From: Granulicella sapmiensis
Lineage (GTDB): Bacteria; Acidobacteriota; Terriglobia; Terriglobales; Acidobacteriaceae
Reading direction: 5' to 3'
Assembly: GCA_026225395.1 (NCBI GenBank)
Contig: JAMFSR010000001.1
Location: 1-64,000 of the forward strand
Length of the DNA stretch: 64,000 nt
Below are positions 28,729-54,522 of the stretch, piece after piece. The notes below the pieces were generated by a model. The model was not told the DNA's origin, ran no database searches, and saw nothing but the letters and a program-made list of their open reading frames with translations. The position numbers and the translations under genes were made by a program. Positions within the stretch are counted from its first letter, which is position 1. Each line of letters starts with the position of its first letter.

Positions 28729-28785
28729 ATAACCCAGCCGCTTCGCTTTCCTCCGCGAAACTCGGCTCCCTCCGCGAACTCTGCG

Positions 28786-29718: not shown

Positions 29719-29810
29719 CCGTACAGCATACCCCGTAGACTCAACGCGATAACCTAACCCCCGCACCCTCGTCTCATCGACATCGCCACTTCAACCCGCA
29801 AAGGTCAACC

Positions 29811-30359
29811 GTGAAAGCCTTCACCCTCCTTCTAGCCCTCACCCTCGCCGCAACCGCCGGCGCACAATCCACCTGGAAGAACCTACGCTTCGGCCAATCC
29901 CGCGACGACGTCCACAACGCCCTCACCGCGCAGGGCATCGCCGTCGAAACCAGCCAGGAAGGCGCGCTCCAGTCCACCAGCGACTACCCACTCTTCGTCC
30001 CCGGCCTCCGCCACCCCCTGCCGCTCCACACCGAGTTCCGCTTTACCGACTCCGGCGGCCTCATGGACATCACCCTCACCCTCGACATCCCCGCCATGCG
30101 CCAGAACTACAACGAGTTCCGCACCGACGACGCCTTGCTCGCCTTCGCCTCTGACCACCTCACCCGCGCCCTCACCGACATCTACGCCGCGCCCGTCTCC
30201 ACCACCTCCGAGTGCGACGCCGACCCCGCCACCTTCGCCAACAAGCCCACCGGCTGCACCATCAATTGGCACGGCACCGGCCAATCCATCGCCATCGACT
30301 GGCTCACCCGCCCCGCACACCTCTACATCCGCTATCAAATGCTCTCGCCCGATCTCTAA
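29811..30359 (+). CDS. Hypothetical exported protein
   Basis: Signal peptide MKAFTLLLALTLAATAGAQS; intact ORF. Confidence 0.7.
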   Translation: MKAFTLLLALTLAATAGAQSTWKNLRFGQSRDDVHNALTAQGIAVETSQEGALQSTSDYPLFVPGLRHPLPLHTEFRFTDSGGLMDITLTLDIPAMRQNYNEFRTDDALLAFASDHLTRALTDIYAAPVSTTSECDADPATFANKPTGCTINWHGTGQSIAIDWLTRPAHLYIRYQMLSPDL

Positions 30360-30398
30360 CCCTTGCGATCCACCCGCACGCACGCCCAAAATAGAAAC

Positions 30399-30893
30399 AT
30401 GCCGCTAGAAATCCCCGCCGACACCCTCATCCTCTGGAACGACCAAAGCGCCCAGCACTGGCACGACTTCCTCGTCGCCAACCCCGGCCTCATGGACATC
30501 TCTTGCGATATCGGCCGCGCGACCACCATCGCCCAGCTCTTCCAGCACATCGTCGCCGTCGAACTCCGCTACGCCCAGCGCCTCGCCTCCCAGCCCGAGT
30601 CCGACTACGCCGACATCCCCTTCGACTCGCCCGCCGCCATCTTCGCCACCCACACCCGCGCCCTGGACACCGTCCGCACGCTCCTCGCCGACCCCACTTA
30701 CGACTGGTCCCACGAAATCGAGTTCCAGACCATCACCGCCGGTCGCCTCCGCGCCTCCCGCCGCGCCATCCTCATCCACCTGCTCATGCACAGCATCCGC
30801 CATTACGCGCAACTCGCCACGCTCGCTCGCACCCACGGCTTCAAACCCACCTTTCCTGGCGACTACCTCTTCGTCGACGCCAAACGCGCCTGA
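30399..30893 (+). CDS. DinB-like family protein
   Basis: LFQHIVAVELRYAQRLA..ILIHLLMHSIRHYAQLATLAR, conserved His pattern of DinB/YfiT folds. Confidence 0.75.
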   Translation: MPLEIPADTLILWNDQSAQHWHDFLVANPGLMDISCDIGRATTIAQLFQHIVAVELRYAQRLASQPESDYADIPFDSPAAIFATHTRALDTVRTLLADPTYDWSHEIEFQTITAGRLRASRRAILIHLLMHSIRHYAQLATLARTHGFKPTFPGDYLFVDAKRA

Positions 30894-30909
30894 TCTGCAT
30901 CCAACGGGC

Positions 30910-31344
30910 ATGCACAATCTTCTAGCGATTGCTTCGCTCGCGATCCCGTTCGCCGCCGCCACGCTCGTTCCACGCGCCCAGGCCCAGCCCAACGGCATCG
31001 TCTCGCTCTACGAGCTCCGCCACACCTCGCGCCCGCTTCTCATCTTCGCCCCTAAACCCGACGACCCTCAGCTCGAAATCCAGGTCCGCCGCCTCACCCA
31101 GAACGCCGCCATGCTCGCCGAGCGCGACGTCGTCATCATCGCCATCCCTTTCGAAAGCCCCTCACCCACCGACGCCTCCCTAAGCCCCGACGAAGCCACC
31201 GAGGCCCGTCGCCGCTTCCACATCGCCCCCACCGACTTCACCGTCATCCTCCTCGGCAAAGACGGCAGCGAAAAGCTCCGCGACACCAAACCCTTCACCA
31301 TCGCCAAGCTCCGCGACACCATCGACGCCATGCCTATGCGCTAG
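30910..31344 (+). CDS. DUF4174-like exported protein
   Basis: SRPLLIFAPKPDDPQLEIQVRRL..VILLGKDGSEKLRDTKPF. Confidence 0.7.
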   Translation: MHNLLAIASLAIPFAAATLVPRAQAQPNGIVSLYELRHTSRPLLIFAPKPDDPQLEIQVRRLTQNAAMLAERDVVIIAIPFESPSPTDASLSPDEATEARRRFHIAPTDFTVILLGKDGSEKLRDTKPFTIAKLRDTIDAMPMR

Positions 31345-31517
31345 GACGAAATCCGCGCCCACTCCCACTAACCCCACACGCGCCCCTGGTCTTGCTCTTG
31401 TCTTTCTGGTTTTCCATTCCGAGCAACGGGAGGAACCTGCTTCATCCCGTTCTTCACCCGCTCCGGCACAATGCCCCAGGGGAACATTCCCACCCCCACC
31501 CCCGTACCATCAACCCA

Positions 31518-32405
31518 ATGCCCCTCAAGCGTCCGCTTGCGCTAGCCCTCATCCTCCTCGCACTCCCTCTAGCGGCCCAGCAGCCCACTGCGCAGGACAT
31601 CATGGCCCGCGTAGCCGCCAACCAGGACGCCACCGAAGCCGCCCGCCTCCACTACGTCTACATCCAGCACGCCCACGTCCGCTCGCTCAAGGGCCACACC
31701 GTCCGCTGCGAAGAAACCACCGACACCCGCATCACCCCTACTGCCACCGGCTCCGACCAGCAGCTCATCAAGCTCGATGGCCGCCTGCTCCACAAGGGTC
31801 AATACATCACCTACACCCACCTCCCCACCATCGCCGAAACCGGCCATCCCAGCCCCAACACAGACGACATCAACATCGACAACGACGACGAAACCGACCG
31901 CGACATCGTCGAGCACATGCGCCACAACCTCACCAACGACAAATCGAAAGACGGCATCAGCGCCCGCCTCTTCCCCCTCACCTCAAAATCCCAGGCCGGC
32001 TACATCTTCCAGCTCCTCGGCCGCGCTCCCCTCAACGGCCACGACACCTTCCACCTCACCTTCCACCCGAAAGACACGTCAGACCAATCCAACTACGGCT
32101 GGAAGGGCGACGCCTGGATCGACACCGCCACCTTCCAGCCCGTCCTCGTCCGCACCGCCATGGCCCGCAACATCCCCTTCGCCGTCCGCACGCTACTCGG
32201 CACCAGCCTGCCCGGCCTCGGCTTCAGCGTCACCTACGCCCCCCAACCCGACGGCGTCTGGTTTCCCATCACCTTCGGCACCGAGTTCAAGATGCACATT
32301 CTCTTCTTCTTCAACCGCGAAATCATCATCGACGCCCACAACCTCGACTTCGAAAAAACCCACGTCACCTCGCAAATCCATCCCGCAGCCGAATCGGTCC
32401 CATAG
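31518..32405 (+). CDS. Hypothetical exported protein (outer-membrane lipoprotein-sorting-like fold possible)
   Basis: Signal peptide MPLKRPLALALILLALPLAAQ; beta-rich. Confidence 0.65.
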   Translation: MPLKRPLALALILLALPLAAQQPTAQDIMARVAANQDATEAARLHYVYIQHAHVRSLKGHTVRCEETTDTRITPTATGSDQQLIKLDGRLLHKGQYITYTHLPTIAETGHPSPNTDDINIDNDDETDRDIVEHMRHNLTNDKSKDGISARLFPLTSKSQAGYIFQLLGRAPLNGHDTFHLTFHPKDTSDQSNYGWKGDAWIDTATFQPVLVRTAMARNIPFAVRTLLGTSLPGLGFSVTYAPQPDGVWFPITFGTEFKMHILFFFNREIIIDAHNLDFEKTHVTSQIHPAAESVP

Positions 32406-33714
32406 ATCCGGCCTCGGCCTCACCACCTAAAGCCTCATCTGGAAACCCGGTTCCCCGTTCTACCGCCGGCATTTCCTCCGGCAGAGGATAGCGTGTTGCC
32501 GCATAGAACAGCACGAGCAAGACAATCGCCTTTATCTGCCCTTCAATCGTCCGCCCTCTGAAAATAAACTCGCTTAACGGAGCACAGAGAAGAACGAAAC
32601 AGACAAGTATCAGCTGAAGACCGCGGATCCTTCGCTCCCCTGCTCTTAACACGACCAAGGACACCATCGCCCACGGCACATAAAGATGCATCAGCGTGTA
32701 GTCCAGCGAAACCGGTGGCAAAACGATGCAAGCCACCGTCAAACAGATCACCTGGTTTACCACCGGCAGTTTTCGTATCCGGAGAAAGTAGAGCGCGCAC
32801 CCCGCCACTGCCACGATGCCAAGGTAGACGTTCAACCACTTCGAAAGCACCTCCGCCGAAGGCAGATGCGGCAGTAGGGTCTTCAGTAGCGCGAACAGCG
32901 AATGGTCGTATCCGATCTCAGGAAACAGCCGGTGCAGGAACGCATATTCCCGAAAATGCTCAATGCCCGCAGCGATCTGATGAGCGGAATACGCAATCGA
33001 AGGGCAAACCGCCCAAAGCGAAAACAAGTTGACCGCAGCTGCCAGGATCACCGCAAAGACACACTGCCGATACTGCTTCTTTGCCACCAGAAGGCCAAGA
33101 AACACGAACGGATAGATCTTCAGCGCCATGGCAAACCCGATGCATGCCGCCGCGAGCCACGTTCGCCCGTCTAAAAACGCCCATACCGCTCCAATCGTCA
33201 GGCCCAGAAGGACGATCTCCATGTTGCCGTCTTTCAACTCAAACCAGAAAGGGTAGGAAAGAAAAAAACAGGCCGTCAGGTACAGCAGCGCAGTCCGTCT
33301 GGAAACTCCAAATTCAATCCACCTCCGCCCAAGCATCCCTCCCGAAATCGCTACAAGCAAAAGTGAGAACACGAGGAAAGCCAACGTGGTCAGCCTGCCG
33401 AACAGGTAGAAAAACCAATAGAGCAAGGCTATCGGTGCAGGATACATAAAAGGCACCTGCCCCGCGTATTCGAAGAAACTCAGCTTATGAAAATACTGAA
33501 ACCGCCCCGTGTAGGCGAGCAAATCGTAGGCAAACGCGCCGGGATTGAAAATTGGAAAGTTGAAGGGAAAATGCAGGTGCAGCACAAGATAGCTGAACAC
33601 TTCAATTCCGCCGCAAACCCCTGTAGCGACCGCGGACCAAAATAGAAATTGCCGCAGAAATGTGGGAAGTGGTGTCGTCATTCGAGGTTTGAAACTGGAT
33701 GATTCCATGGCCAA
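32365..33714 (-). CDS. Glycosyltransferase family 87 (DUF2029)-like membrane protein
   Basis: Multi-TM; WLAAACIGFAMALKIYPFVFLGLLVAKKQYRQ. Confidence 0.85.
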   Translation of the reverse strand: MAMESSSFKPRMTTPLPTFLRQFLFWSAVATGVCGGIEVFSYLVLHLHFPFNFPIFNPGAFAYDLLAYTGRFQYFHKLSFFEYAGQVPFMYPAPIALLYWFFYLFGRLTTLAFLVFSLLLVAISGGMLGRRWIEFGVSRRTALLYLTACFFLSYPFWFELKDGNMEIVLLGLTIGAVWAFLDGRTWLAAACIGFAMALKIYPFVFLGLLVAKKQYRQCVFAVILAAAVNLFSLWAVCPSIAYSAHQIAAGIEHFREYAFLHRLFPEIGYDHSLFALLKTLLPHLPSAEVLSKWLNVYLGIVAVAGCALYFLRIRKLPVVNQVICLTVACIVLPPVSLDYTLMHLYVPWAMVSLVVLRAGERRIRGLQLILVCFVLLCAPLSEFIFRGRTIEGQIKAIVLLVLFYAATRYPLPEEMPAVERGTGFPDEALGGEAEAGSMGPIRLRDGFAR

Positions 33715-33756
33715 ATTCTACAGACACACCTACCAGCAACCCGATACCCCACAAAA

Positions 33757-33782
33757 AGATCGCCTCCCGAAGGAGGCGATCT
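33757..33782 (-). terminator. Intrinsic terminator of the DUF427 gene
   Basis: Arms AGATCGCCTCC/GGAGGCGATCT; on the minus strand followed by TTTTTGT. Confidence 0.8.
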
Positions 33783-33812
33783 CACAACAAACTCACAACC
33801 AATCCACAAGAT

Positions 33813-34154
33813 TTACGTGGTCACAATCTCCACCCCACGCCAGAACGCAACATGGTGCTTCACAGTCTTCGCAGCAGGCTTCGGGTCCGGGTAGTACCAG
33901 GCCGCGTCAGGATTTTCCTGTCCGTCGACCAGCACGGTGTAGTACCGCGCCATACCCTTCCAGGGGCAGCTTGAGCTCGTCGAGCTCGGTTTCAGGAACG
34001 AGCGATTGACAGTTTCTTCGGGAAAATAAATATTCCCCTCGACAGTCTCGATCTTCTCGCTCTCCGCTAGAGTCTGTCCGTTCCAAATTGCCTTTGCCAT
34101 TTCTGCTCCAATCATTTCAGTCAGATACAGCAGGCAGCCCATCTCGCCATTCAA
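33813..34154 (-). CDS. DUF427 domain protein
   Basis: AIWNGQTLAESEKIETVEGNIYFPEETVN..CPWKGMARYYTVLVDG..AAWYYPDPKPAA; start probably at the internal Met near 34100. Confidence 0.88.
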   Translation of the reverse strand: MNGEMGCLLYLTEMIGAEMAKAIWNGQTLAESEKIETVEGNIYFPEETVNRSFLKPSSTSSSCPWKGMARYYTVLVDGQENPDAAWYYPDPKPAAKTVKHHVAFWRGVEIVTT

Positions 34155-34324
34155 GGCCGAGCGCTCCTGTGCCGCGGTTTTGCCGCGTACCCTTTACGGT
34201 TATAGCACAAATCTACTAGAAATGGAAAGTCGCAACCAAGGTTCTACCAAACCTCATAGTTACCAACCCGTAAACACCACTGGTTACCAAGCGATCGAAC
34301 CCCCACGCCGAAACCGCCACAAAA

Positions 34325-34409
34325 CCGAGTGACCCACCCTTTCGGAGTTTCACCACAAAACCGGGTGGCCCATCCGTTCGGAGCTTCACCCCGAAAGGGT
34401 GGGGTATCG
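34325..34409 (-). repeat. Palindrome family B copy B1
   Basis: Reverse complement reads CGATACCCCACCCTTTCGGGG..CGAACGGATGGGCCACCCGG plus a third half-unit. Confidence 0.6.
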
Positions 34410-34454
34410 TTTGCGGTACCAAACGACCGTGCTCCCGCCCCAGCAACGCCAGCC

Positions 34455-37391
<2,937 letters not shown>

Positions 37392-37573
37392 TCCTTACAC
37401 CTATCCGGGGACAGCGGCCCAGAGGCCCGTCCCATTTCCAATTCCATTGCAAACTAACACGTTTTGCCGAGGCCAAGTCAAACCGCCCCTCAGCTTCTTA
37501 CCCTACGCAACCCCGCAAGGGCATGTTCCATTGGACGTGCGAACTTGCTTTTTCTCGACTCGCCACAGACCGG

Positions 37574-37620
37574 GTTCCCCATTCATCGGGCAGCATTTGG
37601 CCCGATGGGTGGGCCGCCAC
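37574..37620 (+). repeat. Palindrome family B copy B2
   Basis: GTTCCCCATTCATCGGGC..GCCCGATGGGTGGGCCGCCAC. Confidence 0.6.
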
Positions 37621-37645
37621 AAACGCCTGCACCTGCATGCGACTG

Positions 37646-38815
37646 CTAGAAAGACCGCACGTAATTCTTGCCCGGCATCTGCTTCACACGGCCCGCAAGC
37701 TCCAGCTCGAACAACGCCGTAAATATCTCACCCGAAACCATCTTCGGCTCCAGTCTCTCGATTAAATCATCGAGCTGCAGTGCCTCATCCTGCCTCAACT
37801 CGGCAAGCACCGTCCGCTCATGCTGCCCCATCGCAGGGGTCGCTTCAGCGGCCTGTCCTGCGAATAAGGATGCGGTCCCCGCGGAAAACGATTCATTCGC
37901 CCCCACCCGCTCTTCCACTTCCAACCGCACCTGCGAGGGCAAATCCTCCCACACATCCTCCCAGGTTGCGGTCAATTTTGCTCCCTGCTTGATCAGCGTA
38001 TTCGGCCCCCAGGCGTTTTTGTTTGTTGCATTTCCAGGCACCGCGTACACATCGCGCCCTTGCTCCAACGCGCATCGCGCCGTGATTCTGGTACCCGAAT
38101 ACTCCGCCGCTTCAATCACCAGCACGCCGACACTCATGCCACTCAGCGTCCGGTTCCGGATGGGAAAATTCTGCGGCGCCGGAAAGGTTCCCAGCGGAAA
38201 CTCACTGACCACCGCACCGCCCTGCGCGACGATTTGTTCGGCAAGCTTCTTGTTTTCCTTCGGATAGATCATATCGATCCCCGTGCCCCAAACCGCAACA
38301 GTCGTCCCCCCGGCGTCGAGCGCCCCTTTGTGCGCGCACGTATCCACACCCCGCGCCATGCCGCTCATGATGACCATGCCGCGCCGCGCCAGATCGCGAC
38401 TGATGACCTCTGCCATCCCCGCTCCATAGGGCGAAGGTTGCCGCGTTCCAACAACCGCAATCCCCGCACGATTCAACACACTCGCATCGCCCCGAACCCA
38501 GAGCACGGGCGGCGGATCGTAGATCTCCATCAAGCGGCCGGGATAGGCTTCGTCGTCAGGCGTCAGGAAGACTGCGCCCATCTCCGCTGTCCGCCCAGCC
38601 TCTTCCACTGCAGCTGCACGAGCTCGTCCGTCAAAGCAGAACTGTGCGGACTCCGCAGGCATGCCGACGCCCTCAAGCTCGGTCAATGAAGCCGAGAACA
38701 CGCGCTCAGCACCACCCATCCGCTGCACTGCTCTTGCAATTCGCGTAGGCCCCATCCGCGGCGTCAACGCCAGCGCCAGCCACCCCAGGCGCGCCTCTGC
38801 CTTCATCTCATCCAT
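37646..38815 (-). CDS. dprA: DNA processing protein DprA
   Basis: LGWLALALTPRMGPTRIARAV, AVVGTRQPSPYGAGMAEVI, SGMARGVDTCAHKGAL, RNRTLSGMSVGVLVIEAAEYSG. Confidence 0.94.
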   Translation of the reverse strand: MDEMKAEARLGWLALALTPRMGPTRIARAVQRMGGAERVFSASLTELEGVGMPAESAQFCFDGRARAAAVEEAGRTAEMGAVFLTPDDEAYPGRLMEIYDPPPVLWVRGDASVLNRAGIAVVGTRQPSPYGAGMAEVISRDLARRGMVIMSGMARGVDTCAHKGALDAGGTTVAVWGTGIDMIYPKENKKLAEQIVAQGGAVVSEFPLGTFPAPQNFPIRNRTLSGMSVGVLVIEAAEYSGTRITARCALEQGRDVYAVPGNATNKNAWGPNTLIKQGAKLTATWEDVWEDLPSQVRLEVEERVGANESFSAGTASLFAGQAAEATPAMGQHERTVLAELRQDEALQLDDLIERLEPKMVSGEIFTALFELELAGRVKQMPGKNYVRSF

Positions 38816-38883
38816 GTACGCGAACCCTCTCCGCAGCGTTGTGACTCGCATCCTATCAAACCCGGGCTGACTAGAATAAGGAT

Positions 38884-39750
38884 GTGCCTCTTCGCGTAGC
38901 TGCCATCTCGTTTCTGAATCCTGCTCCACTCCTCTATAACTTCGAGCACGAACCTACTGCCTCGCAGCTGCGGTCGCACTATGACGTTCACTACACAACA
39001 CCCGCGAATTGCGCTACAGAACTGCTGAATGGAACGGCGGATCTTGGGCTGATTCCGATCGCTTCGCTGACGCCGGAGTTGGCGATTGTTCCAGGATGCA
39101 CGATCGCTTCGCTGCATGAGGTTCGCAGCATTCTGCTGCTGGTGAAAAACTCTCAAAATCTCAGTGATGACGCGGCTTTGAGGGCTGTACGCACAGTAGC
39201 TGCGGACGCTGCTTCGCGGAGTTCGCAGGCTTATGCGCACATACTTTTTGAGCATTTTCACCAGGCAAAACCAAGCTTCGTCGAGCATCTGGCAGACCCG
39301 ATTCCTATGCTTGCGCAAGCGGATGCTGCGCTGCTGATTGGTGATCCCGCGCTGCTGGCGCGGGAGCATCGTGGGGCTATTGAGGCGGCGCATCCGGGGC
39401 TGCTTTGGTTGGATCTGGCGGCGGTTTGGCGGGGGCTTACGGGACTTCCCTGGGTTGCAGCTGTATGGGCTGTGCGGCCGGAAGCGATTGATTTTGCGGG
39501 AGTTACAGCCGTGCAGTTGATTGCGGATCTTACTGCCAGCCGCGATAACGGGCTGGCGCATATTGAGGAGTTGGTGCGGGAGTGGACGCCGCGTTTGGAG
39601 GTTCCGGCGGCTACGATTCGGACGTATCTGACTGAAAACATTCACTATACGCTGGACGCGGAGTGTGTGAAGGCTATTGAGGAGTTTCGGGGGTTGGCGG
39701 CGGGGATTGGGGTGTTGCCGGAGTTGGGAAAACTGACCTTTTTGTCGTGA
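38884..39750 (+). CDS. mqnA: Chorismate dehydratase (menaquinone futalosine pathway)
   Basis: VAAISFLNPAPLLYNFEH, GTADLGLIPIASLTPE, SSQAYAHILFEHF; GTG start. Confidence 0.85.
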   Translation: MPLRVAAISFLNPAPLLYNFEHEPTASQLRSHYDVHYTTPANCATELLNGTADLGLIPIASLTPELAIVPGCTIASLHEVRSILLLVKNSQNLSDDAALRAVRTVAADAASRSSQAYAHILFEHFHQAKPSFVEHLADPIPMLAQADAALLIGDPALLAREHRGAIEAAHPGLLWLDLAAVWRGLTGLPWVAAVWAVRPEAIDFAGVTAVQLIADLTASRDNGLAHIEELVREWTPRLEVPAATIRTYLTENIHYTLDAECVKAIEEFRGLAAGIGVLPELGKLTFLS

Positions 39751-39904
39751 CGTTTTTGTGGATGTTTGTGGTGCGTTGTGGTGGTTTTACGCATTTTGTG
39801 GTGTCCAGCAACCTTTACATTTTGTCCAGCAAACTTGACATGTTTTGGGGATCGGCTGGCTGGGCGAGTCTTCGACCTGTATCCTCGCGTCAGACCCCAA
39901 GAGT

Positions 39905-40609
39905 ATGATGCCCGACTTAAATCCCGCCCTCGCTCTCTTCGCACTCGCGGCGAGCCATAAGGCGCTGCATTTTTTGTTCCACCTGGGGCTGGTGGGGCTG
40001 TTTGTGATCTCGTCGGTCGATAGCTCGTTTATTCCGCTTCCGATTCCGGGCGTTACAGACATCATGATCATCGTCTACGCGGCGAACAAGGCGAATGTGA
40101 TCCTGCTGGTGCTGATTGCGACGACGGGTTCGGCCGCAGGGGGATTGTTTTCGCATGCCGTTGGGCAGGCGGGTGGGATGAAGTTCCTGGAGAAGAATGT
40201 TCCGAAGCCGATTCTGAAGCGAGTGACGGTTTGGATGGAGTCGCATGCGATTCTCGCGGTGGCGCTGCCTGCGCTGTTGCCGCCGCCGGCACCGCTTTCG
40301 CCGTTTGTGCTGGCTGCGGGTGCGGTGCAGATGTCGCGGAAGAAGTTCATGACGGCGTTTGTGATCAGCCGGTTTGTGCGGCACTCGATTGCGGCGTGGC
40401 TCGGGGTGCATTATGGGCGCGCGGTGGTGGGATTGTGGTCGCGGTTTTCGGCGGAGTGGGGGACGAGGATTTTGATCGGGCTGTGGACGTTCATGCTGCT
40501 ATTTGCGGGGATCGCGATCTGGCGGTTGATCAAGACCTCGCGGGAGTTGGAGATGGAGACGGGGAAGCGATTGAAGCAGAGGGTCGCGCGGAAGCCGAGA
40601 GCAGCGTAG
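39905..40609 (+). CDS. YqaA/DedA-like (VTT domain) membrane protein
   Basis: SVDSSFIPLPIPGVTDIMIIVYAANK, SHAVGQAGGMKFLE, VALPALLPPPAPLSPFVLAAGAVQMSRKKF. Confidence 0.82.
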   Translation: MMPDLNPALALFALAASHKALHFLFHLGLVGLFVISSVDSSFIPLPIPGVTDIMIIVYAANKANVILLVLIATTGSAAGGLFSHAVGQAGGMKFLEKNVPKPILKRVTVWMESHAILAVALPALLPPPAPLSPFVLAAGAVQMSRKKFMTAFVISRFVRHSIAAWLGVHYGRAVVGLWSRFSAEWGTRILIGLWTFMLLFAGIAIWRLIKTSRELEMETGKRLKQRVARKPRAA

Positions 40610-40701
40610 AGCGAGTTTTGGGGGTTGCGGTTGGGGTTGGCTATGAGGAAATTGCGGCGATTGCGGAGTAAAATGTTATATCGCGAGGTTGGTGAGCAGC
40701 C

Positions 40702-40905
40702 ATGATGATCGACAAGAATCCGAAACATTGGAAGCTGTTGTTTTTCTATTACAACCAGGAGCAGCCACGCCTCTGGGTGCGAAGGCGGTGGGCCTGGGGA
40801 CTCACGCTCAACTTCGCCAATCCGATGGCGTGGGCGGTTGTCGCCGTGACCCTCACGATACCGGTGATCGGCGCCATGATCGAACAGGTTCATTCGATCC
40901 ACTAG
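40702..40905 (+). CDS. Small membrane protein, DUF5808-like
   Basis: YYNQEQPRLWVRRRWAWGLTLNFANPMAW followed by one TM. Confidence 0.6.
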   Translation: MMIDKNPKHWKLLFFYYNQEQPRLWVRRRWAWGLTLNFANPMAWAVVAVTLTIPVIGAMIEQVHSIH

Positions 40906-40971
40906 ATCGAGACGATGCCCGAATTTCGATGGACTCGCTTCGGTCTGCGTCTCCTGCTAAACTGTGATCTG

Positions 40972-41068
40972 TGCCGGGTCCTACGCGACGCATACCCGCC
41001 AACCCCGCCAGGTCCGGAAGGAAGCAACGGTAACGGGCCCATGCGGGCGCAGTAGGGTAACCCGGTAC
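40972..41068 (+). ncRNA. ffs: Bacterial small signal recognition particle RNA (4.5S)
   Basis: Conserved apical domain GCCAGGTCCGGAAGGAAGCAACGGTAACGG flanked by pairing arms GCCGGGTCCTAC / GTAGGGTAACCCGGTA. Confidence 0.95.
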
Positions 41069-41128
41069 AGTAAACCCTCCCTTCTGGAATAACCCTCCCA
41101 AGACAAGATGAGCCGGTGCAGTGGAATG

Positions 41129-41200
41129 CCCGGGGCTAAAGCCCCTTGAGGGCAAAGCTTGTTCGTGGGGCTAAAGCCCCACGCTAATCCGAAAGGCAAG
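41129..41200 (+). repeat. REP family A copy A2
   Basis: CCCGGGGCTAAAGCCCC..GTGGGGCTAAAGCCCCACGCTAATCCGAAAGGCAA. Confidence 0.8.
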
Positions 41201-41359
41201 GCGGCTAAGGCCTTGCGCTCATCCGAAGGAGAGGCGTCTGATATCTCGCGCCAATCCGAAAGACGAGCGGGTTGTGGGCGAAAACCGCCTTGTAAGCCTC
41301 AAAATCCATTCGTGCGCGGTAAGATACCTTTTGTTGTGCTTCTCCCGGAGGATGGCAGT

Positions 41360-42376
41360 TTGAGTCTTGAGTTGAAACCCCGCAATACTGTTCGCGCGAA
41401 AATTTCAGCCGTTGGAGCTTATGTTCCACCCCGTCTGCTGACCAATGCAGACCTTGAGAAGATGGTCGCGACGAACGACCAATGGATTACGGAACGCACC
41501 GGCATTCGGCAGCGGCATATTGTGGACAAGGGCGTCGCGACGAGCGACCTGGCGGCGGAAGCGGCTAGGGACTGCCTGAAGAAGGCGGGAGTTGCAGCGA
41601 GCGATCTGGACGCGATCATTGTGGCGACGGTAACGCCGGATATGTTCTTTCCCGCGACGGCTTGCCTGGTGCAGGAGAAGATTGGCGCGACGGGAGCGTG
41701 GGGGTTCGATCTTTCGGCGGCTTGCTCGGGATTTATTTATGCGCTGCAGATGGGCGCGAAGCTGATTGAAAGCGGAGCGCACAAGAAAGTGCTGGTGATC
41801 GGGGCAGATGTGATGAGCTCGATCATTGATTACACCGATCGCGCGACGTGCATTTTGTTTGGCGATGGTGCGGGTGCGGTGCTGCTGGAGCCTTGTGCCG
41901 AGGGTGAAGTCGGGCTCGTGGACTTTGTGCATGAGATCGATGGCTCGGGGGCGAGCTCGTTGTATATGCCGGGGGGCGGGAGTTTGCATCCTTCGACGGC
42001 GGAGACCGTGGCGAATAAAGAACACTATGTTCACCAGGAAGGCGGGGCGGTGTTCAAGGTGGCGGTGCGGAAGATGTCTGAGCTTTCGGAGACGCTGCTG
42101 ACACGTAATGGATTGACGCCGGCGGATATCGATTTGTTTATTCCGCACCAGGCGAACCAGAGGATCATTCTTTCGACGGCAGAGAAGCTGGGGATGCCGG
42201 AAGAGAAGATCGTGATCAACATTGGCGAGTATGGGAATACGACCGCTGCGACGATTCCGTTGGCGATGCATACGGCGCTGGAGCAAGGGCGGTTGAAGAA
42301 GGATGGGTTGATTCTTCTGGCTAGCTTTGGGGGCGGGTACACGATTGGGACTACGTTGCTGCGGTGGGAGTTTTGA
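41360..42376 (+). CDS. fabH: 3-oxoacyl-[ACP] synthase III
   Basis: [16 protein letters not shown] active Cys, [31 protein letters not shown] 41360 preceded by GGAGGATGG. Confidence 0.94.
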
Positions 42377-42383
42377 AGAGCAG

Positions 42384-42406
42384 TGATTAGGGATTAGGGA
42401 TTAGGG
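42384..42406. repeat. ATTAGGG tandem repeat
   Basis: GATTAGGGATTAGGGATTAGGG directly after the fabH stop. Confidence 0.8.
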
Positions 42407-43405
42407 TTGCGGTAGTTTGTCGAGGAAGTCGTTCATGGCGCGGAGGACCTCGGCTTCGTTGGCGTTGAAGACGTAGTGATCGGCGTTGGGCAGACGGATG
42501 ACTTTGGCCGAAGGGACACCTGCTTCGAAGGCGTTGGCCAGGTTGGTGGTCCTCTCGAGGTCGGCTGCTACCGCTGCGGCGTGGTGGGCGGCGTCCGTGG
42601 GGAGGATGGCGCCTGAGTTTGGGTTGTGCGGCACGGCGAAGATGGCGAGGCAGGGGGCCTTGATCTCGGTGTATTTGTGCTCGCCGCTGAAGATGGCGGA
42701 GAAGACGGTTGTGGATGGCTGCAGTGGGGCATTTGCTGTGGGCGGCGGGATGTCCTGCAGTAACTTCAACTGATTCTGGAGATCCTTTTCCAGTTGGGGA
42801 AGACTGGCGAGCAGGCCTTCGATTTCCTGCCCATAGCCGGAGGGATAGCCGTTGTTGGGGAGGAGTTGCTCGATCCTGTTGCGGGTGTCGAGCATATCGA
42901 GTTGCGGGTCGCCGTGGACGCGATCGTAGAAGGCGTAGGGGAAGCCGGCGTCGAGGTAGATGAGGCCACTGACTTTCTCGGGATGGCGGCTGCCGATAGA
43001 ACTCAGTTCTCCGCCAGCGATCGAGTGTCCCGCGACGACGGGCTTTTGCAGATCGAGGGCGTAGATGACGGCAAGAACATCGTCGCCGAGACGGTCGGAG
43101 GAGTAGTTGTGGGCGTCGGGGGTGGGGGCGCTGGAGTTGCCGAAGCCGCGGCGGGTGATGCCGTAGACGTGGTACTTGCCGATGAATTTGGGTGCAAAGG
43201 TATCAAAGACATGGGCAGTGTTGCCGAGCCCGGCGAGGAAGACGAGAGGGCGTCCGGTACCGCCCCAGTCGAGGACTTCAATCTTGACGCCGGGTTCAAC
43301 GATGACGAACTGCACGGCGCCCTGTGCGTGGAGGCTGCCTGCAAAGAAGATGGCGAGCCCGTAAGCCCATAGCGTGTTCCGATTCAGCTTTCGTCCCAGT
43401 TTCAT
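42401..43405 (-). CDS. Alpha/beta hydrolase, exported
   Basis: LVFLAGLGNTAHVFDTF, VAGHSIAGGELSSIG nucleophile elbow, ADHYVF C-terminal His. Confidence 0.87.
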   Translation of the reverse strand: MKLGRKLNRNTLWAYGLAIFFAGSLHAQGAVQFVIVEPGVKIEVLDWGGTGRPLVFLAGLGNTAHVFDTFAPKFIGKYHVYGITRRGFGNSSAPTPDAHNYSSDRLGDDVLAVIYALDLQKPVVAGHSIAGGELSSIGSRHPEKVSGLIYLDAGFPYAFYDRVHGDPQLDMLDTRNRIEQLLPNNGYPSGYGQEIEGLLASLPQLEKDLQNQLKLLQDIPPPTANAPLQPSTTVFSAIFSGEHKYTEIKAPCLAIFAVPHNPNSGAILPTDAAHHAAAVAADLERTTNLANAFEAGVPSAKVIRLPNADHYVFNANEAEVLRAMNDFLDKLPQP

Positions 43406-43588
43406 AAACAGCTCCTTGGAGATTCCTGCAGACGGTGTGACTTCGAGATTTCAAACCGGATATAGCATACTACATAGGGTATCGCCTGGCAGAAAACGGG
43501 ACGCGGGAGGCATCCAGCTCGCCCTTGACGCGATGAATAGGGCACCCGGATTGTGCTGGGGTAGAAGAGAGCGGTCGGGCTTTCGCCC

Positions 43589-43632
43589 GATACCCCACCC
43601 TTTCGCAAAAGCGCGAAAGGATGGGCCACCCG
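43589..43632 (+). repeat. Palindrome family B copy B3
   Basis: GATACCCCACCCTTTCGCaaaaGCGCGAAAGGATGGGCCACCCG, preceded by hairpin TCGGGCtttcGCCCGA. Confidence 0.7.
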
Positions 43633-43711
43633 AGTTGTGCGGGTTCCTAGAAGCAGATCCCCTGCGAGGATGACAGAAAGAAAAGCAAGGGCAACAACAA
43701 CTACAACGGCT

Positions 43712-45619
43712 TTAGGCTAGTCCCAGCATTCTTACGATGGCCATGGCGTTGGTGGTTTGGTTCATGCCGGGTTTTAGGATGTAGTCGAAACCGAGGGGGT
43801 CGTTTTCGTCGGGGCTGGCCATGTGGACGTTGACTCCGTGGAGTTCGGGGATATCGGCCAAGGCGGCCAGAGTGAGGTCGTGGGTGGAGATGGCGCCGAT
43901 GGCTCCGGCCGCGAGGAGCGAGCGGAGGACGGACTCGGCGGCGGCTTTGCGGTCTAGCGAGTTGGTTCCTGAGAGTACCTCGTCGATGAGGAAGAGGGTT
44001 TGCGCGGGGTGGGCGCGGGCTTGCTCGACCAGGGCTTTGAGGCGTTCTACTTCGGCCAGGAATTTTGATTTGCCTTCGGCGAGGGAGTCTCCGACGACGA
44101 TGGACGCGCCGAGGTGGAGGGCGACCATCTGCAGGGACTTTGCGGCTACGGGGGCTCCGGCGAGAGCGAGGACGGCGTTGGCACCGATGGCGCGGAGGAG
44201 GGTAGATTTGCCGGCCATGTTGGAGCCGGAGATGAGGAGGAATTGGGGGTCGGCGTTGAGGGTGATGTCGTTGGGGACGGCGGTGTTCCACGGGAGGAGT
44301 GGGTGGGTTAAGGATTTGGCGGTGAAGAGAGCGGTGATTGGAGCTGCGGGTCTCTCCACTGCGCTGCGCTCCGGTCGAGATGACAATTCTGAAATAACAC
44401 GTTCGGCCGCTTTCACTTCGGCAGATTCGGGGTCCGGTCGAGATGACAATTCTGTGGGGGAGTCGAGGATTTCTGGATAGGTGTTTTCGATGTGTTCGGC
44501 GGCGTAAGTGGCGATGGCGTTGAGAGCTTCGAAGTTGGCCCAGGCGTTGAGCCATTGGTGCATGGAGGCGGCGTGTTGGCGCTTCCAGCGGTCGAGGCCG
44601 AGGGCGGCGTGGGTGCCTCCGCAGAAGAGGAGGCTGAGGACGTAGTACCACTCCTTGGACCGCTGCTCGACGACGATGAGGAGGCGCTCGAGTTGGGCGA
44701 GGGCGCGGTCTTCGCCTTCGACGGCTTGCTGGAGCTCGCGGAGGAGTGGAGCGGTGAAAGGCTGTTCGCGGAGGATGCGGATGCCTTCGCGGAGGATGAC
44801 GGTTTCGGGGGCGAGGAGTTTGGCGGACGCGAGCTCGGCGAGGGTGCGGGTGCGGAGGGTGCCGCAGGCGAGGGCCTGGAGGGCGAGGAGCAGCGCGATG
44901 TTGCGGGCGAGGAGGGATGAATCCCAATGGAGAGAAAGGCCGGCGATGAGGAGCAGGAGCCAGGCGGCGGTGAGGATGAAGAGGATGGGGCGGGGCCAGC
45001 GGGGGAAGTTGGCGGTGGGAGCGTCGAGCCAGGTTTCGAAGCTGTTGGCGGGGAGGTCTTCAAAGCCGAAGCGGCCGAGGAGGCCGATGCGCTCGCGGAG
45101 GCCGGTGAGGGGAGCCAGCTCTTGGACGGCCTGCTGGCGTTGGCGGGCTGTGGGTGCGTTGGTGGGGTGCAGGAGGAAGTCGGCCAGCGCTCGCTGGCCG
45201 AGGCCGGTGCGGGTGGTGGCGAGGAGGCCGAAGAGTGAGTCGGGGCCGAGGATGTTGAGGTCGCGCTCGTAGAGGTGGTTGGGTTGGGAGAAGGACTCGC
45301 CGGTGCGGCCGGTTTGGGGCTCGGAGCCGGTGATGCGGCCGAGGGCGCGGGTGTAGAAGTCAAGGCGGCGGTCGGCGACGGCGGCGGCGTGGCTGGCGCG
45401 GCCTTTGACGATGCCGGCGACGATGGCGGCGGCGATGCAGGCCGTGACGGGCCAGAAGGATTGATTGTGGTGGATGACGCCCCAGAAGAAGATGAGGCCG
45501 ATGGCGGCGATGGCGAGGAGGACGTTGGCCCACTGGCTGCGGCGGTGGTTGGCGTGGGCTACGGCGGCGGAGGCCTGGTCGCGGCGGGCTTCGTAGTCTT
45601 CGGTGAGGGAGCCGGGCAT
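43712..45619 (-). CDS. Membrane-anchored MutS-family ATPase
   Basis: N-terminal TMs (NVLLAIAAIGLIFFWGVI, TACIAAAIVAGIV); MutS ATPase motifs ISGSNMAGKSTLLRAIG, LFLIDEVLSGTNSLDR, AISTHDLTL. Confidence 0.85.
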   Translation of the reverse strand: MPGSLTEDYEARRDQASAAVAHANHRRSQWANVLLAIAAIGLIFFWGVIHHNQSFWPVTACIAAAIVAGIVKGRASHAAAVADRRLDFYTRALGRITGSEPQTGRTGESFSQPNHLYERDLNILGPDSLFGLLATTRTGLGQRALADFLLHPTNAPTARQRQQAVQELAPLTGLRERIGLLGRFGFEDLPANSFETWLDAPTANFPRWPRPILFILTAAWLLLLIAGLSLHWDSSLLARNIALLLALQALACGTLRTRTLAELASAKLLAPETVILREGIRILREQPFTAPLLRELQQAVEGEDRALAQLERLLIVVEQRSKEWYYVLSLLFCGGTHAALGLDRWKRQHAASMHQWLNAWANFEALNAIATYAAEHIENTYPEILDSPTELSSRPDPESAEVKAAERVISELSSRPERSAVERPAAPITALFTAKSLTHPLLPWNTAVPNDITLNADPQFLLISGSNMAGKSTLLRAIGANAVLALAGAPVAAKSLQMVALHLGASIVVGDSLAEGKSKFLAEVERLKALVEQARAHPAQTLFLIDEVLSGTNSLDRKAAAESVLRSLLAAGAIGAISTHDLTLAALADIPELHGVNVHMASPDENDPLGFDYILKPGMNQTTNAMAIVRMLGLA

Positions 45620-45742
45620 GATGTTGAGGATAGTCTGTTGTGGGTTTGGGGGTTGGGGGGGCGAATGCGGGGTCCTTCGCTGCGCTCGAGGATGACGGCG
45701 AAAAACAAGCAACGGCAGCGGCTTGCTGATTGGGCTTCTGGT

Positions 45743-45788
45743 GTTCCCCACTCATGCGCAAACACCGCGCATGAATGGGCCACCCGGT
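45743..45788 (+). repeat. Palindrome family B copy B4
   Basis: GTTCCCCACTCATGCGCaaacaccGCGCATGAATGGGCCACCCGG. Confidence 0.7.
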
Positions 45789-45916
45789 GGTTGTGGTGCT
45801 TCGAAAAACGCGGGGGCCTTCCCTTCGGCTTCGCTCTGGGTGATGACGACAAGCGCGAGACTTCGCTCAGGATGGCAGAGTTTGCTACAGCTACGGAGAA
45901 CGGTCGCGCGTCGCGC

Positions 45917-45958
45917 GATACCCCACCCTTCGCAAAGGCGCGAAGGATGGGCCACCCG
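45917..45958 (+). repeat. Palindrome family B copy B5
   Basis: GATACCCCACCCTTCGCaaagGCGCGAAGGATGGGCCACCCGG, preceded by TCGCGCgtcGCGCGA. Confidence 0.7.
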
Positions 45959-46050
45959 GCATGCTTGGGATGACAATTCAAAGGGTGGTGGGGGGCGGGA
46001 TCGCTCTTGCATGTTGCCTGAGCGGTCTGACAGGGCGTAGGCTTGCGGTC

Positions 46051-47058
46051 ATGCGTGCGATTGTTTGGATGGGTTTGGTGGCTGGTTCGTTCGTGGGGGT
46101 TTCCCTGCTTGCTCAGGATGTACATGTGAAGGTTGATCCGCATGGGGGCGGGTCGACGGCGAGTACGACGGATTATGTGACGATTCAGCAGGCGCTGGAC
46201 CATGCGCCGGAAGCGCCGCATGGGAGGATCTATATTTCGATTGTGCCGGGGGTGTATCACGAGCGGATCAATGTGACGCAGAATCGGCCGCGGGTGACAC
46301 TGCTGGGGTTGGGGAAGAGTCCCGATGAGGTGGTGATTACCGCTAGTCAGAATGCGAAGGAAACGGGTGGGACTTTCTTTACGGAGACGGCGGAGATCAA
46401 TGGCGAGAACTTTGAAGCCGACAATGTGACGTTTGCCAATGAGGCCGGGCCGACGGGGCAGGCTGTGGCGGCGGCGGTGCGGTCGGATCGGGCGGTGTTC
46501 AAGCACTGCCGGTTTCTGGGCGACCAGGACACGCTGTTTGCCGACTATGGGCGGCAGTATTACGTGGACAGCTATATCGCGGGTGGAACGGATTTTATCT
46601 TTGGGAATGCGGCGGCGGTGTTTGACCGCTCGGAGCTGCATGAAATTCGCAATGGATTTTTGACGGCGCAGAGCCGCGTGGCGCCGGACCAGACGACCGG
46701 GTATGTGATTACGAACTCGCGCGTGACGCATGATGACAGTGCGCTGGATAGGGACGGCAAGCCGACGGTGTTTTACCTGGGGCGTCCGTGGCGGGTGTTT
46801 TCGCGGGTGGTGGTGATGCATACGGAGCTGCCGGCAACGCTCGCGGCGGGAGGATGGTCGATCTGGTCGAAGGCGGACACGAATCCGCAGGCTTTTTATG
46901 CGCAGTACGACAACAGCGGGCCGGGCTGGAGGCCGGAGGCGTTTGTGGGGTGGTCGCATGCGCTGAACGCGAAGGAGGCGGCGGCGTTTGAGCCTAAGAG
47001 GTTTTTGGCGGGGGCGGACCATTGGGATGCCGAGGCGGAGGCTGCTAGACTTCCCTAA
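46051..47058 (+). CDS. Pectinesterase (CE8)
   Basis: TIQQALDHAP, AVAAAVRSDRAVFKHCRFLGDQDTLFAD, YYVDSYIAGGTDFIFGNAAAVFD, YLGRPWR. Confidence 0.92.
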   Translation: MRAIVWMGLVAGSFVGVSLLAQDVHVKVDPHGGGSTASTTDYVTIQQALDHAPEAPHGRIYISIVPGVYHERINVTQNRPRVTLLGLGKSPDEVVITASQNAKETGGTFFTETAEINGENFEADNVTFANEAGPTGQAVAAAVRSDRAVFKHCRFLGDQDTLFADYGRQYYVDSYIAGGTDFIFGNAAAVFDRSELHEIRNGFLTAQSRVAPDQTTGYVITNSRVTHDDSALDRDGKPTVFYLGRPWRVFSRVVVMHTELPATLAAGGWSIWSKADTNPQAFYAQYDNSGPGWRPEAFVGWSHALNAKEAAAFEPKRFLAGADHWDAEAEAARLP

Positions 47059-47085
47059 CCGGGGCTGATTTCCCCGTTCCAAAAC

Positions 47086-48228
47086 ATGCTTGCTCGCAGG
47101 TGCGTTGCCTATCTCGTGTTGCTTGGGAGCTTTGCTGCCTCGGTGCGGGCGCAGGGATTATCAGCTGCTGCGGTTCAAACCACGGTTGATCAAGCCGCTC
47201 ATGATTTCTTTCGGGCGACGCCGGAGGCGGTGGGCGTTTCGGTTGGCGTACTGCTGAATGGGAAAACTTATGTCTACAACTACGGGACGGTGGTAAAGGG
47301 AACGGTTGCGCCGCCGGGCGAACATACACTGTATCCGATTGCCTCGATTACGAAGACGTTTACGGGGACACTGTTGGCACAGGCTGCGATCGAAGGCAAA
47401 CTTAGCCTGACGGATGACATACGCAAATATCTCGATGGGACTTATCCGAACCTGGAATTCGAGGGCCATCCCATTCGGATTTGCGACCTTGTGGATCATC
47501 GCTCGGGACTGCCATTTTACCTTCCAGACAATGCTCAGACGCAGCCGGATTACAACGGCAATGTCGTGCCCTGGACGACACGGGTGCTGGAGCAGACGGC
47601 GCATTACACGCGGGCGGACTTCTATGCTGATCTGCACAAGGTGAAGCTGAGTGCTGTTCCGGGCACAGTGGCGAGCTACTCGAATGCGGGTGCGAAACTG
47701 GCCGGATACATTCTGGAGCGGGTGTATGGCGTGCCTTATGCGGTGCTGCTGGAGCGGAAAATTCTTGGGCAGCTGCACATGGCGGAGACGACGCTGACGC
47801 CAAGCCGCTTGCAGGTGCAAGAGACAGCTACGGGCTACGACGAAAAGGGCCGTACGATGCCGAATTATCCGGTACCGCTCGGAGCGGATGGTGGGATTCG
47901 TTCCAACGTGGTGGACATGCTGAAGTACGCAGGGTGGCAGCTTGCCGCGACGGATGCGGCGGTGAAGCTTTCGCACGAGCCTTATGCAACCAGCGGCAAC
48001 TATAGCGCAGGCTTGAACTGGCAGATGATGACGGACGGGGAGCGGCAGGTGATCTGGCAGTCGGGGAACATTCCCGGCTATGCAAGCTACTGTGTGCTTG
48101 AACCTCGGTCGAATGTGGCGCTGGTTGTGCTGTCGAATGAATCGAGTCCTGCGTCGGGGCACCAGCTGTTTCTGATGGTGAATCGCATATTGAGCTCGCT
48201 CGATCCGCAGGCTGTGCCGCTGCCCTAA
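47086..48228 (+). CDS. Serine hydrolase, beta-lactamase/class C family
   Basis: YPIASITKTFTGTLL (SxxK), SYSNAGAKLAGYILERV (YxN), exported. Confidence 0.88.
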   Translation: MLARRCVAYLVLLGSFAASVRAQGLSAAAVQTTVDQAAHDFFRATPEAVGVSVGVLLNGKTYVYNYGTVVKGTVAPPGEHTLYPIASITKTFTGTLLAQAAIEGKLSLTDDIRKYLDGTYPNLEFEGHPIRICDLVDHRSGLPFYLPDNAQTQPDYNGNVVPWTTRVLEQTAHYTRADFYADLHKVKLSAVPGTVASYSNAGAKLAGYILERVYGVPYAVLLERKILGQLHMAETTLTPSRLQVQETATGYDEKGRTMPNYPVPLGADGGIRSNVVDMLKYAGWQLAATDAAVKLSHEPYATSGNYSAGLNWQMMTDGERQVIWQSGNIPGYASYCVLEPRSNVALVVLSNESSPASGHQLFLMVNRILSSLDPQAVPLP

Positions 48229-48261
48229 GGCACGATGTCGCGCTTCGGCTAGAATCGTCGG

Positions 48262-50322
48262 ATGAAATACGCGGCGGTGTTGGCTCTTTGTCTTGTTGGT
48301 GCGGTGGCTTCGGCCCAAACGGATGTGCATGGGGTTCAGCCGGACCATATGGACAAGACGGCGACGCCGGGGAGTGACTGGTTTCGGTATGCCAATGGGG
48401 CTTATCTGGCGCGGACGGAGATTCCGGCGGACCGGACGGGGTACTCGAGCTTTTCGACGCTGGCCGATGTGGTGAATAAGCGCGTGGCGGCGATCATCGG
48501 GGATGCGGCGAAGTCCGGTGCGGCGGAGGGGACGGAGAAGCGGAAGATTGCCGACCTGTATGCGTCGTATGAGAATGCGGGGATGATTGAGGCGGCGGGG
48601 TTGACGCCGCTGAAGCCGGAGCTGGCGGCGATTGATAGCGTAAAGACGCGGGGGGAGCTGGCGGTTGCGCTGGGTGGGACGCTGCGGGCGGATGTGGATG
48701 CGCTGAACAACACGAACTTCCATACGGCGAATTTGTTTGGGGTTTGGGTGGCGCCGGGGTTCAATGATCCGGACCACTATGCGGTGTATCTGCTGCAGGG
48801 TGGCTTGCAGCTGCCTTCGCGGGATTACTACCTGACGGATAACGCGAAGATGAAGGCCGTGCGCGAGGCTTATGGGTCGCATATCGCGACGATATTTCGG
48901 CTGGCGGGGTACGCGGAGCCTGAGGCGCGGGCGGCGGGTGTGATGCGGCTGGAGACGGCGATTGCGCAGAAGCAGATTTCGCTGGCTGAGAGTGAGGACA
49001 TCAGCAAGGCTGACAATGTTTGGCAGATGGGCGACTTTGCGACGAAGGCTCCAGGGATGGATTGGGCAGGTTACTTCAAGGCGGCGCAGTTGGGTGGGCA
49101 GGCTAGCTTTATCGTGTGGCAGCCGACGGCGGTGACGGCGGATGCGGCGCTGGTGGGGTCGGAGCCGATTGAGGACTGGAAGAACTATCTGGTGTTCCAC
49201 ACGATCGAGTCGTATGCAGGGCCGTTCCGGAGACTGCAGGTTGGGGCGCTGCCGAAGGCGTTTGAGGATGAGTACTTTGATTTCTATGGCAAGACGCTGA
49301 CGGGAGCGACGGAGCAGCGGCCGCGGGACCAGCGGGCGTTGCAGGTGGTGAACAATGTGCTGGGTGATGCGGTGGGGCAGCTGTATGCGCAGGTGTACTT
49401 CCCTGCCGCCGACAAGGCGAAGGTTGAGGTGATGGTGCATAACCTGCTGACGGCTTTCCATGCGCGGCTGGAGGCGGTGACGTGGATGGCTCCGGCGACG
49501 AAGGCGGAAGCGCTAAAGAAGCTGGGGACGCTGCAGGTGGGGATTGGGTATGCGGACCACTGGCGGACGTATGCGGGGTTGGAGATCAAGCCGGATGATT
49601 TGTTTGGGAATATCCGGCGGTATGAGGCGTTTGAGTATCGCTACAACCTGGAGCGGATTGGGAAGCCGGTCGATCGCAAGGAGTGGGTGATGACTCCGCA
49701 GACGGTGAATGCGGTGAACCTGCCGCTGGATAATGGGCTGAATTTTCCGGCGGCAATTTTTGGGCAGCCGTTCTTCGATGCGAAGGCACCGGATGCGGTG
49801 AACTATGGGGCGATTGGGACCATCATCGGGCACGAGATTTCGCACACGTTCGACTCGGAGGGCGCGTCGTTTGATTCGCAGGGCAAGGTGAGGAACTGGT
49901 GGACAGATGCTGATCGCGCGCATTTTGACGCGTCGATTGAGGCGCTGGCGAAACAGTATGACTCGTATGCGCCGTTTCCGGATCTACATTTGAATGGGCA
50001 CCAGACGCTGGGTGAGAATATTGCCGATCTGGCAGGGCTGACGGCGGCGCACGATGCGTGGCTCGCGTCGCTGAAGGGCAAGCCGGCGCCAGAGGTGGAT
50101 GGGATGAGCGGCGAGCAGCAGTTCTTTCTGGGGTATGCGCAGTCGGAGGCGGGAAAGAGCCGTGAGGCGGCGCTGCGGCAGCAGGTGCTGACCGATCCAC
50201 ACTCGCCGAGTGAGTATCGCGCGGATACAGTGCGGAATCTGGATGCTTGGTATCCGGCGTTTGCGGTGAAGGATGGGCAGACGCTGTATCTTGCGCCGGA
50301 GATGCGGGTGCATATCTGGTAG
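48262..50322 (+). CDS. M13 family metallopeptidase (neprilysin/PepO-like)
   Basis: IIGHEISHTFDSEGASFDSQG (HExxH), LGENIADLAGLTAA, NAVNLPLDNGLNFPAAIFGQPFF. Confidence 0.94.
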   Translation: MKYAAVLALCLVGAVASAQTDVHGVQPDHMDKTATPGSDWFRYANGAYLARTEIPADRTGYSSFSTLADVVNKRVAAIIGDAAKSGAAEGTEKRKIADLYASYENAGMIEAAGLTPLKPELAAIDSVKTRGELAVALGGTLRADVDALNNTNFHTANLFGVWVAPGFNDPDHYAVYLLQGGLQLPSRDYYLTDNAKMKAVREAYGSHIATIFRLAGYAEPEARAAGVMRLETAIAQKQISLAESEDISKADNVWQMGDFATKAPGMDWAGYFKAAQLGGQASFIVWQPTAVTADAALVGSEPIEDWKNYLVFHTIESYAGPFRRLQVGALPKAFEDEYFDFYGKTLTGATEQRPRDQRALQVVNNVLGDAVGQLYAQVYFPAADKAKVEVMVHNLLTAFHARLEAVTWMAPATKAEALKKLGTLQVGIGYADHWRTYAGLEIKPDDLFGNIRRYEAFEYRYNLERIGKPVDRKEWVMTPQTVNAVNLPLDNGLNFPAAIFGQPFFDAKAPDAVNYGAIGTIIGHEISHTFDSEGASFDSQGKVRNWWTDADRAHFDASIEALAKQYDSYAPFPDLHLNGHQTLGENIADLAGLTAAHDAWLASLKGKPAPEVDGMSGEQQFFLGYAQSEAGKSREAALRQQVLTDPHSPSEYRADTVRNLDAWYPAFAVKDGQTLYLAPEMRVHIW

Positions 50323-50328
50323 AGAAAC

Positions 50329-50355
50329 AGGTTTTAGGTTTTAGGTTTTAGGTTG
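50329..50355. repeat. GTTTTAG tandem repeat
   Basis: AGGTTTTAGGTTTTAGGTTTTAGGTTG right after the M13 gene stop. Confidence 0.8.
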
Positions 50356-50390
50356 AAGCTAAGGGCTTGGAGCTTCGTCTCATAAGGAAG

Positions 50391-50732
50391 ATGCATTTGA
50401 TTATTGCCGCCATTCGATCGGGGACTGACCCTATTGCGCCGCTGCCGCCAGCGACGTTTCACCGTACGCTGGAGGACCCGATCTACTGTCCGAAGTGCGA
50501 GGCCAGCTACAACCTGGTGGTGGATTATGACCAGGCGGTGGGACGGCATTTTGCGAATGAATCGCGGAGACATTTGGCGATGCTGCGAAAAGCTGTGATG
50601 ATGGGGCATGCGAGCGACCATCGGGTGACGCACTTTGAGACCAATGGGGTGATTGTGACGAGCCATACGTTGCCGAAGATGGAGACGACGCCGGTTACGG
50701 CGTTGAAGCCGCTGACGAAGCTGATCAATTGA
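50391..50732 (+). CDS. Hypothetical protein with CxxC
   Basis: MHLIIAAIRSGTDPIAPLPP..YCPKCEASYNLV; intact ORF. Confidence 0.55.
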   Translation: MHLIIAAIRSGTDPIAPLPPATFHRTLEDPIYCPKCEASYNLVVDYDQAVGRHFANESRRHLAMLRKAVMMGHASDHRVTHFETNGVIVTSHTLPKMETTPVTALKPLTKLIN

Positions 50733-52190: not shown

Positions 52191-52222
52191 GGGTGGCTCC
52201 AAACCTGCTAAAATAGAGGTCT

Positions 52223-54508: not shown

Positions 54509-54522
54509 TTTGGAACACGACC

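Follow-up and report, generated by a model that had tools for sequence, protein, structure and literature searches.

mqnA and the repeat at its 3' end

The window, i.e. the whole stretch of 64,000 nt analysed here, corresponds to C1:1-64,000 of a 4.98-Mb draft genome (G000) with 43 contigs and an estimated contamination of 3.27%. The genes around mqnA were assigned by Pfam (Table 1), which also backs an alpha/beta hydrolase, a MutS-domain gene and M13 in the window. The initial annotation had listed topA among the minus-strand genes to the left of mqnA; topA is present, but the immediate neighbour is dprA, with topA next. The same annotation had found no dnaA nearby; the sole strong dnaA match of the genome is on another contig, C30.

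Table 1. Coordinates of genes, repeat elements and skew domains in the window
Feature	Position	Strand	Basis
C-rich (lagging-like) skew domain, left of the site	1..38995	.	skew windows, third-position skew
topA	34455..37391	-	Pfam
dprA	37646..38929	-	Pfam
mqnA, menaquinone biosynthesis, PF02621; co-oriented with the repeat and ending at it	38884..39750	+	Pfam
C-to-G skew switch point (cumulative minimum 39,003) inside mqnA	38996..39074	.	change-point analysis
G-rich (leading-like) skew domain, right of the site; reaches ~80 kb on the contig	39075..64000	.	skew windows, third-position skew
Iteron array, TTRYGGTG-type units spaced 10-11 bp, 5' part of the repeat	39746..39801	+	copy alignment, model match, spacing count
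Intergenic gap from the mqnA stop to the VTT-domain gene, holding most of the repeat	39751..39904	.	
First core copy TGTCCAGCAACCTTTACAT, two mismatches to the core	39802..39820	+	
Second core copy TGTCCAGCAAACTTGACAT, exact, in tandem with the first at 21 bp	39823..39841	+	
VTT-domain (DedA-like) membrane protein gene	39905..40609	+	Pfam
fabH-like 3-oxoacyl-ACP synthase III	41312..42376	+	Pfam

The skew extremum proposed for this locus was recovered by computation: the cumulative GC skew of the 64,000-nt window is lowest inside mqnA, and a two-segment likelihood change-point analysis places the switch within the same gene (log-likelihood gain, 799). Skew values in 2-kb windows range from -0.07 to -0.42 on the left of the switch and from +0.05 to +0.33 on the right. 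As had also been claimed, the change is independent of gene orientation, with top-strand third-position skew moving from about -0.45 (-0.46 in plus genes, -0.40 in minus genes) to about +0.45 (+0.43 and +0.51, respectively). A gene-strand effect can therefore be ruled out as the cause, since both gene strands show the same top-strand skew. Given that the usual GC skew of bacteria in SkewDB is ~2.5% (PMC8941118), the size of the skew in the window is exceptional. Beyond the window, the skew of contig C1 is positive until ~80 kb and then returns gradually, and hence the minimum at 39 kb is one of many extrema in the genome and not the single minimum of the chromosome. Farther along the same contig, C1:155,000-215,000 has a low GC content (mostly 0.51-0.56) and a low skew, and is probably a genomic island.

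The T/G-rich gap behind mqnA contains one of 24 copies of an intergenic repeat of ~80 bp found in the draft genome. Alignment of the copies revealed TTRYGGTG-type iterons, mostly 10-11 bp apart and with the variants GTGG, ACGG and ATGG, followed by a strict 19-bp core, TGTCCAGCAAACTTKACAT; 55 of the 100 spacings between neighbouring iteron motifs are 10 or 11 bp. The gap sequence itself matches ~20 other places in the genome, and the copies are ~71-86% alike to that of the window. The core pattern has 25 matches in the 24 copies, whereas a reversed control pattern has none in the genome, and a profile search returned the same 24 copies at E <= 3e-11 together with ~7 additional iteron arrays below E = 0.01 that have no core. 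All 24 copies are intergenic, 18 of them behind the end of a co-oriented gene and six not. They are solitary in their gaps, each has flanks of its own, and neither a transposase nor a larger element was seen around them. The repeat has no Rfam match at E <= 1 and its RNA folds no better than shuffled sequences; a known structured RNA was thus rejected. The helical spacing of the iterons and the strict core point to protein binding. The TGTGG motifs of the gap, which had been compared with DnaA boxes, turn out to belong to one copy of this dispersed repeat, with TRYGG iterons and a 19-bp core, a different motif. No TTATCCACA DnaA-box clusters (<=1 mismatch) were found at dnaA, at parS, at the repeat sites or on the contigs examined, and a DnaA-box cluster in the gap was therefore rejected.

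Among the 28 members of the genus and the GTDB species set that were searched, G000 alone has the repeat. A profile search of the 27 genus mates gave no convincing match, the core has three single, chance-level matches only in GTDB r220, and the repeat is absent from IMG/VR viral contigs, phages and plasmids. These results suggest that the repeat is lineage-specific, and a plasmid or phage origin was rejected based on the searches of phages, plasmids and viral contigs.

Strand asymmetry at the dispersed copies

The association of the repeat with skew was tested on the ~1.46 Mb of G000 that were read. The mean 8-kb skew change is +0.287 at the 24 copies versus +0.034 at random positions, and the largest of 100,000 resampled means is 0.198, a comparison that is conservative, yet not unbiased, as the random positions were drawn from sequence enriched for site-centred stretches. 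A clear sign change, from below -0.05 to above +0.05, is present at 17 of the 24 copies versus 11% of positions. Read on the T/G strand, all 24 copies have a G-rich 3' flank and 22 show a rise in skew from 5' to 3'. Two copies, on C19 and C41, have no local switch. TA skew also shifts in the replicative sense at the copies, and the effect is seen in genes of both strands. Where a local minimum is present it lies, with one exception, 5' of the repeat and typically 0.2-2 kb off; the repeat is found ~0.8 kb to one side of the minimum and in a fixed orientation. When averaged over the copies, the skew is +0.15 to +0.2 starting immediately upstream of the repeat; in the 5' direction it falls to ~0 at -1 kb, to -0.15 at -3 kb and to -0.2 at -10 kb. 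This mean profile is sharp at the repeat and fades over tens of kb, with the 5' part of the switch spread across 0.5-2.5 kb. The core-less iteron arrays have the same geometry relative to C-to-G switches, and repeats are located at C-to-G but not at G-to-C switches. On C16, where two sites are 50 kb apart, the skew reverses smoothly and gradually midway, as expected of forks that meet at varying points. Each site is an intergenic iteron array with a core, at which divergent strand asymmetry begins and from which it decays toward the next.

Strong, sign-changing C-to-G switches without the repeat are found at C26:54.9k, C16:211k and C30:63k in the 0.88 Mb of contig scanned. Two segments, C26:54,900-78,400 and C30:63,250-71,650, are bounded by sharp C-to-G and G-to-C switches that lack repeats, and are candidate recent inversions or insertions. 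The complete genome of the genus mate G133 has a very strong skew, up to +-0.35, with C-to-G switches in five of 20 sampled 20-kb stretches, and these switches lack the G000 repeat. Two REP-like families were observed in G133, one of ~75 nt ending in GGAGTTAGC and one of ~130 nt that contains a palindrome. In the sequence sampled, the 13 copies of the 75-nt family all follow the strand that is locally G-rich, to either side of a switch. A common repeat at the switches of G133 itself was rejected, as the REP-like families track the direction of the skew and not the switches. As the switches of G133 lack the G000 repeat, either other elements do the same job there, or the repeat marks such sites rather than making them.

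The polarity of the switch had been interpreted in the initial annotation as that of an origin or an inversion junction in or next to mqnA. The origin-like sign is right, with G and T rising on the leading side, whereas the inversion is contradicted by collinearity: the genes at 29.8-61 kb have the same order and the same relative orientations in the genus mates G152 and G121 (the latter probably Granulicella mallensis), neither of which has a skew switch in the collinear region. For orthologues on the right of the window site, third-position skew is +0.53/+0.56 in G000 versus -0.40/-0.22 in G152/G121, while on the left the signs agree across all three genomes. At the copy at C12:82,271, the right-side orthologues have +0.66 in G000 versus -0.59 in the collinear G133, and the left-side orthologues -0.58 and -0.46, again with agreeing signs. 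A third, smaller comparison, of C20 with G121, agrees. An inversion junction is thereby ruled out at two sites, the window and C12:82,271, by collinear and co-oriented genes, and, as judged from these comparisons, skew polarity has changed in place at the checkable sites with retention of the ancestral gene order.

Proposed replication starts and competing explanations

Four parS sites, TGTTCCACGTGGAACA, one of them with a mismatch, are located at C30:25,129-26,038 beside rsmG, parA and parB, genes named here by position and parS and not by family search; no exact parS site is found outside C30 in G000. Between two of these sites lies a core-less iteron array at a C-to-G switch, 23 kb from dnaA, where the local skew is near zero. 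We take the parS/parAB region to be the presumptive oriC of the chromosome. In each of the five family members compared, the DnaA helix-turn-helix reads GGKHHTTVMHS in place of the GRDHTTV type; this GGKHHTTV reading and the missing TTATCCACA clusters near dnaA and parS suggest that the DnaA box of the clade may differ from TTATCCACA. Altered DnaA specificity was rejected as the cause of the switches, since domain IV is essentially the same in G000 and its relatives. A Rep_3 (PF01051) initiator was likewise rejected, with no match in G000 or in seven relatives. The comparison of DnaA and the Rep_3 search thus yielded no candidate protein that would bind the repeat. Loss of RNase HI was also discarded as a cause, as an RNase_H family protein is predicted in G000 as in its relatives. 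A chromosome minimum elsewhere had been put forward as evidence against an origin at mqnA; a presumptive oriC does exist on C30, but some two dozen other sites show this polarity as well, and the argument presupposes a single origin.

Bidirectional replication leaves just such a trace, a divergent asymmetry in which both outward flanks have leading composition whatever the gene strand, and the simplest account is that the repeats are, or mark, replication starts. Skew records evolutionary history and does not prove that the sites fire. On balance, the switch in mqnA is probably the footprint of a replication-start-like site, one of ~24 dispersed, lineage-specific sites to which ~7 core-less arrays can be added. 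We hypothesize that the helically phased iterons and the core are bound by a protein that opens or primes the DNA immediately 5' of the array. Forks would then travel outward on either side, starting from a sharply fixed point when heading 3' and from positions spread over roughly 0.5-2.5 kb when heading 5', and would meet those from neighbouring sites at no fixed point. The iteron module among the parS sites beside parA/parB suggests that the repeat family may have spread from the canonical origin or may share its binding protein. More tentatively, it is possible that this acidobacterial lineage replicates its chromosome from at least about two dozen repeat-encoded origins with an iteron-binding initiator, and that these spread after divergence from the genus mates.

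The repeat could also mark start zones and not cause them, as there are switches without it in both G000 and G133. In such a scenario, which we consider rather unlikely, fork-divergence points are set otherwise and a mobile or REP-like repeat inserts in a fixed orientation just inside the leading side. The fixed orientation and the ~0.8-kb offset from the minimum are consistent with this, as is G133, which has switches and two skew-oriented REP-like repeats but not the G000 repeat. However, the G133 families are spread along the skew domains, whereas the G000 repeat is almost confined to switches, and its individual flanks, the lack of a larger element or transposase around it, and the lack of copies in phages, plasmids and viral contigs also speak against this scenario. 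Starts could instead depend on recombination or R-loops, with the repeat acting as a recurrent break site, or as the source of a G-rich RNA that forms R-loops at gene ends, and priming forks without a dedicated initiator. This is suggested by the T/G-rich sense strand, which would give a G-rich RNA, by the 18 copies behind a co-oriented gene end, by the 5' side of the switch being spread over 0.5-2.5 kb, and by the origin-independent starts known in Escherichia coli rnhA mutants (PMC5333043, PMC4631800). It is nevertheless improbable: six copies do not follow a co-oriented gene, protein binding is suggested by the strictness of the core and the helical phasing of the iterons, and an RNase H-fold protein appears to be present, as in relatives.

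That the repeats are inversion breakpoints in a single-origin chromosome is very unlikely. Inversions do occur, as indicated by the paired sharp switches without repeats (C26 54.9k/78.4k, C30 63k/71.7k), which resemble inversions or insertions, but at two sites the relatives have collinear genes in the same orientation, repeats are found at C-to-G and not at G-to-C switches, and reversals between sites are gradual. An assembly or binning artefact, with unrelated pieces joined at a repeat, might be suspected in a draft of 43 contigs with an estimated contamination of 3.27%. We give this hardly any credence, as the switch lies within an intact mqnA, the gene order is the same in two other genomes, and the copies are too short and too diverged (~71-86%) to force false joins.

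If the replication-start interpretation is confirmed, the rule of one origin per chromosome in bacteria would be broken. It would add a novel class of origin sequence and prompt a search for a new initiator, and a natural genome with about two dozen repeat-marked, origin-like points would make the multi-origin question directly testable. As a caution, replication rates based on metagenomic coverage cannot presume one skew minimum per chromosome. Engineered second origins carry a cost.

Relation to known replication origins

The sites resemble bacterial oriC in their sharp C-to-G switch, outward of which either flank has leading-strand composition, and a related array without a core is located among the parS sites next to parAB. 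Unlike oriC, with its DnaA boxes and dnaA or parABS neighbours, they comprise ~24 dispersed copies with no TTATCCACA cluster and no adjacent dnaA or parS. Chromosomes with multiple origins, as in archaea (Sulfolobus, Haloferax) and eukaryotes, likewise have several divergence points, separated by zones of gradual convergence. Archaeal origins have origin recognition boxes with adjacent cdc6/orc1 genes, whereas here the host is bacterial, the element is a lineage-specific repeat of iterons and core, and the sites are putative starts. With helically spaced direct repeats next to a distinct conserved element, the sites recall the iteron origins of plasmids (Rep_3/RepA); in contrast to these, the G000 repeat is chromosomal and dispersed, with no plasmid match and no Rep_3 protein in the genome. 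Starts independent of oriC occur at several places in E. coli rnhA mutants, a process known as constitutive stable DNA replication, or oriK (PMC5333043, PMC7045392). However, that is a mutant condition without a dedicated repeat, whereas here RNase H is predicted to be present and a strict core recurs.

No paper describing such a repeat was found in the open-access literature searched. Strand asymmetry has been used before as a hint of more than one bacterial origin (Gao 2015, PMC4403523; Xia 2012, PMC3269012). The cases reported by Gao are pairs of putative DnaA-box oriCs next to replication genes, and skew minima alone were considered insufficient because of rearrangements (PMC4403523). In G000, by comparison, about two dozen sites are tied to one repeat family and the inversion alternative was tested by collinearity, so that this warning is addressed both by the repeat association and by the collinearity test.
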